A DNA stretch of 64,000 bases from Acidimicrobiia bacterium (GTDB lineage: Bacteria > Actinomycetota > Acidimicrobiia > Spongiisociales > Spongiisociaceae): assembly GCA_021296345.1 (NCBI GenBank), contig JAGWAN010000005.1, positions 1 through 64,000 on the forward strand, written 5' to 3'. Both the position numbers and the translations under genes were made by a program. Positions 1,080-4,589 of this stretch are shown in pieces. The notes beneath the pieces were generated by a model. That model saw only the letters and a program-made list of their open reading frames with translations. It was not told the DNA's origin and did no database searches. The first letter of the stretch is position 1. Each line of letters starts with the position of its first letter.

Positions 1080-1214
1080 CCGGACCACTACAGCCCCCGT
1101 CGATGGTTGATCCCCAACCGTGCCCTACGCTCGCCCATCGGTTCTCTCCATGCTTCCGAACAGCCTGCTCAATGCTAAGGTATCAATGGTTGGGTAACGG
1201 AGAGGACCGGACGG

Positions 1215-3242
1215 ATGACTCTCACCGCAGACAGTGCGGTCACTCAGAAGCTCAGTTTGCTCGACGAACTCGTCCTCACACTCCTCAACGAGGAGAGCGG
1301 CTACTTCCGGCAGGTTCCCGGGTGGGATTTGAACTGTGCCGTTATCGGAGGCGTGCTGGGAGAGCTATCCCTCCTATCTCGTATCGACACGGATATGGAT
1401 TCTCTAATCCTTCTGGATAGAACACAGACGGGCGATCCTGCCCTGGATCCCATACTCGAGAAAATCGCCGCAGAGCCGGTTCAGCGGGACGCCCAGTACT
1501 GGATCGAACGACTCGCTCCGCGCGCGGACTCGATTATCGCCCTGACCCTTGACCGACTGGTAGACCTGAAGCTCCTCCGGCATCACGACGGTGAATTCTG
1601 GTCGCTGGCCCAAGGCGCGTGGCAGAACGACTCCCACGCCACATCCGGAGAGGGTACCGCTGTCGACTTTGTCAAGACGCGTCTCAGCAGAGCGATTTTC
1701 GCTAACGAGATTCCGTACCCGAGAGACATCATAATAATTTGTCTCATCAATACATGTGACGTCTTGCGCTTCATATTCGAACTCGATGAGGAGTCGGAGA
1801 AACGCGTCGAGTTCATCAGCAAGATGGACTTGATCGGCAGATCCATCGCCGCAGCAGTTGGCCATAACCTGGCTGGGTCATTGTTCAGGCCCTCCGCTTT
1901 CGCCAAGCCGATTCCGGTTGTCCCGCTTCGTCATGTGCTGCGCAGTCGTCACATGCGCGAAGGCAATCTTCCTGCGTTCTTTGCAGAGCTCGCGAAGGCA
2001 TACGGGTCCGTTTTCCAAATCCGCCCGCCCTTTGCCAACCCGATAATCTTTCTCGCCGGGCCCGAGATGAACCATTGGGCACATCGGCACGGGCGCATGT
2101 ATCTGAGAGCTCGAGACTATCTGGAGGACTTCGAGAAGGTATACGGTGGGTCGGGGATATTGCCTACCCTGGACGGTGCTGATCATTTCCGGTACCGCAA
2201 GTCCATGCAGCCGGCTTATTCACGTTCGAGGTTGGTGGCGCAGCTGGATGAGATCTACTCCAATGCCCGCAATCATATGGCGGCTTGGTCTGTCGGAGAC
2301 GTACTCCCCGGAAAGACGATGTGCAGGCGGTTCATCAACTCGAAGATGTCGCCGATCACTGTCAGTATCGATTCTCAGGATGTCGTCGATGACCTCCACA
2401 AGTTCAAGGAAAGAGCACTACAAACCCACGTAGTCGGGAATCTGCCTAAGTTCATGCTGCGTACTCCGGGAATGAGGCGCCGGGCGAAACTGATCGCAGA
2501 AGTCATGGAACGGGTTCAGAGCGTCCACACACCGGCCCAGCGGGCGGGATGCCCTCGTGATCTGGCCGATGACCTGCTGAGTATGCACACGAGCGACCGG
2601 CAGTTCCTCCCAGAGTCGAATCTGCCGTTCGTGCTCTCGGCGCCGCTGATCGCAAGCATGTATGTCGGCGATCAGCTTGGCCTCGTCATCTACGCGATGT
2701 TGTCACAGCCCGAGTTCCACAAGAGTATCCGCGATGAGGCTGATGCCTTGTTCGCCGACGGGAACCCGGATCGTGACGAAATCACCGGTCCGGCGATGGA
2801 CGTTACCCGCCGGTTCATCATGGAGTGCATGCGTCTCTACCCGATCGTGCCGGCATCGTACCGAAACGTCATGAATACCTGCGCGGTCGACGACTACGAA
2901 CTGCCGGAGGGCGCACGGGTCTTAGTCGCCCAGACGGCCACGCACTATATGGAGGACGTCTTCCCCGATCCCCTCTCGTTCGATATCGACCGCTACCTGG
3001 CGCCGCGCAAGGAGCACCTCGGGTCGTCATATGCGCCGTACGGTCTGGGCACCCATACCTGTCTGGGATCCCGGTGGACGTCGCTGCATCTGGCAATACA
3101 CTTGCTGTTGCTCGTACACCATTTCGACGTCGAGATCTCCCCGGCCAAGTACAAGCTGAAGATCAGCCCGTTCCCGTCGTCGTCGGTGAACAACAAGCTG
3201 AAGTTCGTCATCACCGAGCGGAGGCACGAACTGCCGGTGTAG
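1215..3242 (+). CDS. GPP34 (GOLPH3-like) domain - cytochrome P450 fusion protein
   Basis: The product has 675 residues in two parts. Residues about 12-222 match the GPP34/GOLPH3 fold family: LSLLDELVLTLLNEESG, then a GGVLGELSLLSRI helix and LTLDRLVDLKLL. Residues about 232-675 are a cytochrome P450: C-helix HFRYRK at 324-329, ExxR at E537-R540 (ECMR), PERF-like region FDIDRYLAP, and heme loop YGLGTHTCLG with the thiolate Cys616. Two deviations are visible: the heme-loop Phe is Tyr609 and the usual Arg is His614, and the I-helix reads YVGDQLGL without the usual acid-Thr pair. The ATG follows GGAGAGGA at about 8 nt. No ferredoxin or reductase gene is in the window. Parts of the GPP34 half are clearly AT-richer than the neighbours (28 of 60 G+C at 1741-1800), suggesting acquisition. 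GPP34 proteins bind membrane lipids in eukaryotes, so a membrane-docked P450 is a reasonable inference; the substrate is unknown. Confidence 0.88.
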   Translation: MTLTADSAVTQKLSLLDELVLTLLNEESGYFRQVPGWDLNCAVIGGVLGELSLLSRIDTDMDSLILLDRTQTGDPALDPILEKIAAEPVQRDAQYWIERLAPRADSIIALTLDRLVDLKLLRHHDGEFWSLAQGAWQNDSHATSGEGTAVDFVKTRLSRAIFANEIPYPRDIIIICLINTCDVLRFIFELDEESEKRVEFISKMDLIGRSIAAAVGHNLAGSLFRPSAFAKPIPVVPLRHVLRSRHMREGNLPAFFAELAKAYGSVFQIRPPFANPIIFLAGPEMNHWAHRHGRMYLRARDYLEDFEKVYGGSGILPTLDGADHFRYRKSMQPAYSRSRLVAQLDEIYSNARNHMAAWSVGDVLPGKTMCRRFINSKMSPITVSIDSQDVVDDLHKFKERALQTHVVGNLPKFMLRTPGMRRRAKLIAEVMERVQSVHTPAQRAGCPRDLADDLLSMHTSDRQFLPESNLPFVLSAPLIASMYVGDQLGLVIYAMLSQPEFHKSIRDEADALFADGNPDRDEITGPAMDVTRRFIMECMRLYPIVPASYRNVMNTCAVDDYELPEGARVLVAQTATHYMEDVFPDPLSFDIDRYLAPRKEHLGSSYAPYGLGTHTCLGSRWTSLHLAIHLLLLVHHFDVEISPAKYKLKISPFPSSSVNNKLKFVITERRHELPV

Positions 3243-3335: not shown

Positions 3336-3543
3336 CTAGCCCTGATTATTCCTGCTTCCGGCACACCGATGCGCATCAGGCCACGTCAACCTCATCATGG
3401 TTGAGCGGCCACACTTCACCCGGCGGCGGATTTCGCCCAGGGCCGGAGATGGGCCGGGCAGGATGGCTTAACGCCAGGTCAGGGGGACACGAAGCCCATT
3501 CCCTGCACCGGCACAAACTCCATCCATGAGTAATTGGAGCTAG
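3336..3543. repeat. Family-2 intergenic element, copy A (intact ends)
   Basis: This is a 208-bp element between the converging P450 and Rieske genes. It starts CTAGCCCTGATTATTC and ends GAGTAATTGGAGCTAG, so its ends are imperfect inverted repeats. It carries the internal motif CCAGGTCAGG. The left 100 nt align closely with copy B at 4677 in the same orientation. Its right edge contains the TAG stop codon of the Rieske gene. No ORF in it is credible. Related partial copies are at 12080, 20918 and 42321. Confidence 0.75.
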
Positions 3544-4589
3544 CGGATCTCCGGATCGCCGGGGTCGGGATAGAACTGGGCGCAATAGCGGCGGAACGGC
3601 ATGATCTCGCCGTCGGAACGGCAGAGGAGCGGGCGGGATCGGAACTGTTTACGGCTCCAGATGACCACATCCTGCTGGACGTCCCGGTGCTGCTGAGACG
3701 AGATGAACCTGTTCATGATGGGGGCTCGCAACTTCACCGGCAGGAAGCCCAGGCCCGCTATCCACCGGCCCGGCTTGCGTATCTCCCGCACCTGTGAAAC
3801 CAGCGACAGGTCGATGAGCGAACCGTCGACCGGCGTGGCCAGCACCCACAGGCGCGTGTCCATTCCGATCGAACGCTCGCGGATCTCCACGAACGAGTAG
3901 CCCAACCCGAAGATTCGGGTGCGGGCGGAGACCTCAAAGGTAGAGGTAATCGTTCCGGCAATCTTTCGGTTGCGCCTGAAGTCGAAGTCGCTCTCCAGGC
4001 GCGGCCCGTCCACCAACACCCGCCCCACGCGGTCCACGCTGTCGTAGCCGTGGACGTAGCGCAGGTGGCCCACGTCGACCGAGTTCTCCGTCGTCTCCTG
4101 GGGATGGCCCGGGAACCGGAGGGTCCTGATCTTGAGACCGGTCCATCCGTCCTGATCCAGCACATCGTCAGGCAAGCTCCATTGCGGCGCCCGTCCCCCG
4201 ATCCCCCACCAGGCGAAGATCAGGCCGGCAACTTCCTGCGTCTCGAAGACGCGCAACCTCGCGGTCGTGGGCGGGGGCGAGTAGGGGGTGGCCACGCACT
4301 GGCCGGTCGCGTCGAACTCGTAGCCATGGAACGCACAGACCAGCCGCCCATCGCAGATACGTCCCCCTGCGGTCGGTCCCAGATCGGCGCCCAGATGCGG
4401 GCAAAAGGCCCCGGAAACGCACACCTTCCCATTCCCGTCGCTCCATGCGACGATGTTCTCCCCCATCCACGTCTTTTCGATCATCCCGGCTTCCACCAGA
4501 GCCTTACGGCTCGTGACGAAGTACCAACCCTCAGGAAATGGAGAAGGAATCGGGGCATTTTCGAGCACGACCCTACGCCGGGTTGCCAT
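3540..4589 (-). CDS. Rieske non-heme iron oxygenase, KshA/DAF-36-like
   Basis: The product has 349 residues. The Rieske [2Fe-2S] motif is C63-P-H65 ... C85-AF-H88. The mononuclear iron site reads ENSVDVGHLRYVH, giving bridging Asp172 and His175/His180, with a likely third ligand Asp307 in QDVVIWSRK. The C-terminal phrase PLLCRSDGEIMPFRRY followed by QFYPD strongly recalls the end of 3-ketosteroid 9-alpha-hydroxylase oxygenase (KshA) and the DAF-36/Neverland sterol desaturases. A steroid- or isoprenoid-like substrate is therefore inferred. The start ATG has GAGGAGG 7 nt upstream. No reductase partner (KshB-like) is nearby. The gene is bracketed by family-2 repeats A and B, and its stop codon lies in A. 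It converges with the GPP34-P450 gene. Confidence 0.88.
   Translation of the reverse strand: MATRRRVVLENAPIPSPFPEGWYFVTSRKALVEAGMIEKTWMGENIVAWSDGNGKVCVSGAFCPHLGADLGPTAGGRICDGRLVCAFHGYEFDATGQCVATPYSPPPTTARLRVFETQEVAGLIFAWWGIGGRAPQWSLPDDVLDQDGWTGLKIRTLRFPGHPQETTENSVDVGHLRYVHGYDSVDRVGRVLVDGPRLESDFDFRRNRKIAGTITSTFEVSARTRIFGLGYSFVEIRERSIGMDTRLWVLATPVDGSLIDLSLVSQVREIRKPGRWIAGLGFLPVKLRAPIMNRFISSQQHRDVQQDVVIWSRKQFRSRPLLCRSDGEIMPFRRYCAQFYPDPGDPEIR

Follow-up and report, generated by a model that had tools for sequence, protein, structure and literature searches.

A GPP34-P450 fusion gene and its convergent neighbor

The window, by which we mean the whole stretch of 64,000 nucleotides of Acidimicrobiia DNA analysed here, carries a gene in which a GPP34 (GOLPH3-like) domain is joined to a cytochrome P450. 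The features identified at this locus are as follows.

1199..1205, + strand: Shine-Dalgarno-like GGAGAGG, 9 bases upstream of the ATG
1215..3242, + strand: GPP34-P450 fusion gene (675 aa), from the open reading frame, Pfam and full-length conservation in relatives
1257..1859, + strand: GPP34 (GOLPH3-like) domain, residues 15-215, from Pfam, PDB profile match and fold match
1860..1934, + strand: linker, residues about 216-240, with low model confidence at 215-228
1935..3224, + strand: cytochrome P450 domain, residues about 241-670, from Pfam, PDB profile and fold
2652..2672, + strand: I-helix segment ASMYVGD (residues 480-486), replacing AGx(D/E)T, from alignments
2823..2834, + strand: ExxR (E537-R540), invariant in family alignment A2
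3030..3068, + strand: heme-binding loop YAPYGLGTHTCLG with the thiolate Cys616, which is invariant
3540..4589, - strand: Rieske non-heme iron oxygenase with KshA_C (Pfam KshA_C, E = 3.4e-24; Rieske, E = 1.6e-15)

The reading frame of the fusion (1215-3242, + strand) starts with ATG and runs through 675 codons with zero internal stops, as an earlier note made from the sequence had claimed. That note had placed GPP34 at about residues 12-222, and the Pfam HMM for GPP34 (PF05719) matched residues 15-215 (E = 2.3e-25, 90.3 bits; cut-off 29.1), while the p450 model (PF00067) was matched with E = 2.8e-35 (122.4 bits; cut-off 22.8). The AlphaFold model of the GPP34 half (pLDDT 86) had human GOLPH3 and yeast Vps74 as its only significant fold matches in the PDB (GOLPH3 by Foldseek: E = 2e-7, TM 0.68), and a profile built from GPP34 sequences, both fused and standalone, matched the PDB entries of GOLPH3 and Vps74 with E values of 1e-8 to 2e-7 (3kn1, E = 1.3e-8). 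The fold matches of the full fusion model (pLDDT 76) were P450s, with the CYP51-ferredoxin of Methylococcus capsulatus first, and the PDB profile matches of the P450 half included CYP51-ferredoxin and CYP725A4. By profile and by fold, sterol 14-demethylases are among its nearest solved P450s. A chance match to GPP34 is ruled out by the Pfam, PDB profile and fold matches together.

An assembly or binning error as the source of the fusion, a doubt raised beforehand, is ruled out by unbroken full-length homologues in 14 genomes of the same order and at 80 loci of independent MAGs. These homologues in relatives and other phyla also rule out a protein confined to one genome. The Rieske gene lies tail to tail with the fusion gene in the window, and because the two genes converge they do not form a simple operon there.

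Loss of the oxygen-activating motif from the P450 half

By fold and HMM, and by the presence of the heme-thiolate Cys and ExxR, the C-terminal half is a member of the P450 superfamily. Across 47 sequences, no variation was seen in ExxR (E537, R540), the heme Cys616 or the C-helix Arg. The note had spoken of full P450 landmarks; HFRYRK (324-329), ExxR (537-540) and Cys616 are indeed in place, but the description was incorrect as it stood because the I-helix AGx(D/E)T is absent. In the alignment, the I-helix reads IASM-YVGD against IAGLDT, one residue shorter, and the O2-activating acid-threonine pair is gone. Compared with CYP51 and CYP725A4, the position of the catalytic Thr is occupied by V/L484, beside the invariant Tyr483. 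Y483, G485 and D486 are all invariant in the fusion family, and every checked member reads AS-x-Y-x-GD, one residue shorter than its relatives. The acid-alcohol motif of the I-helix is usual in P450s, is not universal, and is no condition of membership in the superfamily.

Nearly all Chloroflexota relatives of the P450 half (25-34% identity) have AGxDT, and the window family forms one clade on a fully supported branch of 1.27 changes per column. Since the relatives keep AGxDT and the family is a single clade on a long branch, the motif change is derived and consistent with a single event, after which it was retained across phyla. The loss of the pair in every checked member makes a standard O2 monooxygenase cycle improbable and argues against an ordinary monooxygenase. 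It speaks for a changed reaction rather than decay, because the heme-binding residues stay invariant.

The GPP34 half and lipid binding

The PI4P-binding residues of human GOLPH3 are W81, R90, R171 and R174. In the profile alignment, which is weak in this region, the positions of R90, R171 and R174 are not Arg in the fusion, and a Trp of the fusion sits two positions off W81. Docking of the GPP34 half through phosphoinositide as such is unlikely, since these pocket arginines are missing from the alignment; the domain reading of the earlier note thus stands, while the phosphoinositide basis that it had borrowed from GOLPH3 is weakened. Sterol binding, anionic-lipid binding and enzyme recruitment are candidate roles, and GPP34 as a membrane dock or lipid presenter for the P450 is plausible. 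Many residues are invariant in the fused GPP34 domain, several of them consistently unlike those of standalone GPP34. A standalone GPP34 gene also occurs in the window genome (L001, contig C13:19792-20385) and in many relatives, including relatives that do not carry the fusion.

A second GPP34-P450 family and the age of the fusion

A second family of GPP34-P450 proteins was found in Chloroflexota (L150:1263-3311, L152:6227-8287 and L151:5969-8032, the last with one in-frame TAG). It shares the order of the two domains with the window fusion and is 31% identical to it over the full length, but it has the canonical AGxDT that the window family lacks. It also differs in its surroundings, with an acyltransferase-3 gene directly downstream and none of the sterol-set neighbors described below in the flanks examined. 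Two further P450s have no GPP34 domain (L153:6276-7715 and L154:3032-4486), and their N-terminal stretch resembles the last GPP34 helix; GPP34 has therefore probably been lost secondarily from both, and the fusion probably predates the loss of the I-helix motif.

Distribution and habitat of the fusion

Among 198 related genomes, 15, including that of the window, carry the fusion full length and unbroken: eight of the ten genomes of the window genus, one of another genus in the same family, and six of a single genus in another family, whose proteins are 63-64% identical to the window fusion (alignment A1). A scan of 84,980 species yielded 189 related stretches, the best 80 of which are fusions with 61-87% identity. 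According to the record titles, these 80 loci belong to Actinomycetota, Chloroflexota, Gemmatimonadota, Nitrospirota, Latescibacterota, Binatota and Verrucomicrobiota. Identity over all full-length copies was 58-87%, with one copy at 52%. In a sample of 396 Actinomycetota genomes drawn evenly, the fusion occurred in the window's own genome only, and about 25 of 400 Chloroflexota genomes had it.

The tree of the fusion protein is shallow, and the GC content of the gene is below that of its flanks at 96% of 55 loci. Both are as expected if the gene has moved between phyla, although the tree alone is no proof of this. No plasmid record covered 80% of the fusion query, the best ones matching the P450 part only. 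Membership in a defence system was considered and rejected, with no PADLOC match.

The carriers of traceable provenance are sponge symbionts. Five carrier accessions (MPNQ bin134, MPMM bin22, MPNN bin127, MPMZ bin75 and MPNA bin76) span three phyla, and all are MAGs from the sponge Aplysina aerophoba (PMC5649159). Judging from their names, the isolate prefixes RHO, COS, IRC and APA fit sponge species of a further study (PMC8163846). The fusion gene is found in tandem copies at L044, L055, L060, L064 and L066, the last also with a split copy, and some MAGs have two separate fusion loci.

Recurrent neighbors of the fusion gene

Neighboring genes were found by clustering all open reading frames around the 80 best of the 189 loci. 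A KshA-type Rieske family, also present in the window, was found near the fusion at 65 of the 80 loci, a flavin amine-oxidase-like enzyme at 58, an MMPL transporter with sterol-sensing similarity at 44, and a sterol methyltransferase (SMT)-like protein at 32. Their order and orientation vary from locus to locus, and at least one of the four is retained at 77 of the 80. The SMT-like neighbor contains a Sterol_MT_C domain (PF08498, E = 1e-22), and the Rieske protein keeps its metal-ligand motifs (CxH/CxxH and D-x2-H-x4-H). Rarer neighbors include an ERG4/ERG24 sterol reductase (ERG4_ERG24, PF01222, E = 7.5e-40), an LppX/LprAFG lipoprotein, an AcrB-type RND pump with HlyD and an MFS transporter. 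By linkage and co-occurrence with SMT, ERG4/24, the KshA-type Rieske protein and the sterol-sensing MMPL transporter, the fusion belongs to a sterol-modification gene set, a context that the earlier note had missed. Loci from Gemmatimonadota, Latescibacterota and Verrucomicrobiota (L069, L095, L096, L111, L113 and L115) have an AcrB-type RND pump near the fusion, several with HlyD, and no MMPL transporter close by.

Co-occurrence across genomes and the source of the sterol

Within the 198 relatives, an SMT-like orthologue (at least 67% identity) was present in 15/15 fusion genomes and 0/183 others, the Rieske gene in 14/15 and 0/183, and ERG4/ERG24 above the cut-off in 14/15 and 1/183 (G004). 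Fisher's test gave p values of 8e-23, 1.5e-20 and 2e-19, respectively, with kinship ignored; these values are too small because ancestry is shared and just three genera are involved. The robust part of the co-occurrence is the joint absences. Two close kin of the carriers, G009 and G013, lack the fusion, the Rieske gene, the SMT-like gene and ERG4/ERG24, and G004 lacks the fusion, the Rieske gene and the fusion-linked SMT type together.

Of the set, only the fusion and Rieske genes of the window genome (G000) lie in the window, and the SMT and ERG genes are on other contigs. The SMT-like protein of this genome, encoded on contig C17, shares 72% identity with a Chloroflexota one that adjoins the fusion. 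The flavoenzyme was not found in the window genome, in a search that had no positive control. The canonical sterol-binding signature of SMTs is FYEYGWG, and the fusion-linked SMT-like protein (L124:7918-9159) reads FMVFGWG instead, so its substrate may differ from the classical delta-24 sterol; this substitution is a weak point of any assignment to sterols. A second SMT homologue of the window genome (L123:8788-9630, contig C1) is of the canonical type and seemingly broken by a TGA.

A squalene/oxidosqualene cyclase (PF13243) was detected neither in the window genome nor in the 14 fusion-bearing relatives, control genomes being positive. De novo sterol synthesis in the window genome is thus unsupported, and the sterol would come from outside. 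A cyclase was found in 6 of 14 other carrier genomes, and two of these six have the DxDD motif of squalene-hopene cyclases.

Proposed function and alternatives

From the domains and their conservation, the genomic linkage and co-occurrence, the motif loss and the missing cyclase, we infer a sterol substrate, a changed type of reaction, membrane docking and a host origin of the sterol. On balance we favor a membrane-associated P450 within a horizontally spread gene set that modifies exogenous, probably host, sterols by non-standard chemistry. The sterol would be taken up from outside, most likely from the sponge host. The GPP34 half would probably tether the enzyme to the cytoplasmic membrane or present the sterol, and the P450 half, binding heme through Cys616, would have as its substrate a sterol, or a triterpenoid closely related to one, at a point either preceding or following the steps of the Rieske oxygenase, the SMT-like enzyme and the ERG4/ERG24-type reductase. 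Its chemistry may use a proton relay supplied by the substrate, or peroxide, or may be an isomerization, dehydration or desaturation type of step. A bolder version, which we put forward tentatively as less likely than this general reading, is that a P450 without O2 activation and a sterol-loading or sterol-sensing GOLPH3-like domain are at the centre of a module for remodelling host sterols that is exchanged among phyla within sponges.

The main rival is the breakdown of steroids or hopanoids for food, in which the KshA-type Rieske protein and the P450 would open host sterols in a manner like the 9,10-seco pathway. The solved structure nearest to the Rieske neighbor is a 3-ketosteroid 9alpha-hydroxylase (4qdc, E = 5e-23), steroid degraders and sponge-only KshA clusters have been reported from sponge MAGs (PMC5790920), and the carrier Sva0996 bin134 is assigned by NCBI to the family Candidatus Hopanoidivoransaceae. 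However, the SMT family and the ERG4/ERG24 reductase, whose co-occurrence with the fusion is near perfect, are anabolic or remodelling enzymes, and degradation genes like hsaC are absent among the recurrent clusters identified in the neighborhoods. Catabolic P450s, moreover, are generally ordinary monooxygenases with the Thr, and we regard breakdown as rather unlikely.

It is more doubtful still that the P450 half is a dead scaffold or accessory, like the P450 homologues that activate glycosyltransferases, with GPP34 recruiting partner enzymes as GOLPH3 does. Eukaryotic GOLPH3 is known as an enzyme adaptor, and both the lost O2-activation motif and the long branch leading to the family would fit; yet P450-derived scaffolds often lose the Cys, and the invariance of ExxR, the heme Cys and the C-helix Arg points to selection on heme binding. 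Least probable is an ordinary O2-dependent monooxygenase with substrate-assisted proton delivery, of the kind known from P450eryF, which hydroxylates without the Thr, and with an incidental GPP34 half that has no lipid role, given how many residues of fused GPP34 are invariant or set apart from the standalone form and that the second family has kept the fusion too.

Relation to known systems and significance

The CYP51-ferredoxin of Methylococcus capsulatus is close to the window fusion in its P450 fold, being the best fold match and among the best profile matches, and it is likewise a domain fusion with a P450 in a bacterial sterol context. In contrast, its partner domain is a C-terminal ferredoxin rather than an N-terminal GPP34, and with 18-20% identity to CYP51 and no AGxxT the window fusion falls outside the CYP51 family. 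A CYP51 14-demethylase would also need substrate fed by a cyclase, which was not detected in the window genome. The GPP34 half resembles GOLPH3/Vps74 (PF05719) by fold and profile but is bacterial, fused to a P450, and without conserved PI4P-pocket arginines in the alignment.

Functional bacterial SMTs from sponge symbionts have been demonstrated and sterol modification proposed (Brown et al., 2023; PMC10070321), and SMT family enzymes in sponge symbionts are common to that study and ours. Of the 24 SMTs described there, 13 occur with an oxidosqualene cyclase (PMC10070321), whereas the 15 fusion genomes of the window's order have none. A text search of the same paper found no mention of a P450, transporter or desaturase (PMC10070321). 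Whether odd sponge sterols originate from the sponge or its symbionts bears on how fossil steranes can be used as the oldest animal biomarkers (PMC10070321).

With its occurrence in seven phyla or more, the gene set points to symbionts modifying sterols that others have made, and the GPP34-P450 fusion serves as a marker for finding them. If the host-sterol module exists as proposed, its products may include sponge sterols of so far unexplained biosynthesis. The fusion family is further a natural case of P450s that lost the O2-activating pair by deletion and retained this state in all members checked, and it gives a first lead towards the role of a bacterial GPP34 domain. No paper describing a GPP34-P450 protein turned up in our literature search outside subscription journals; the name Gpp34 is also borne by unrelated insecticidal proteins.
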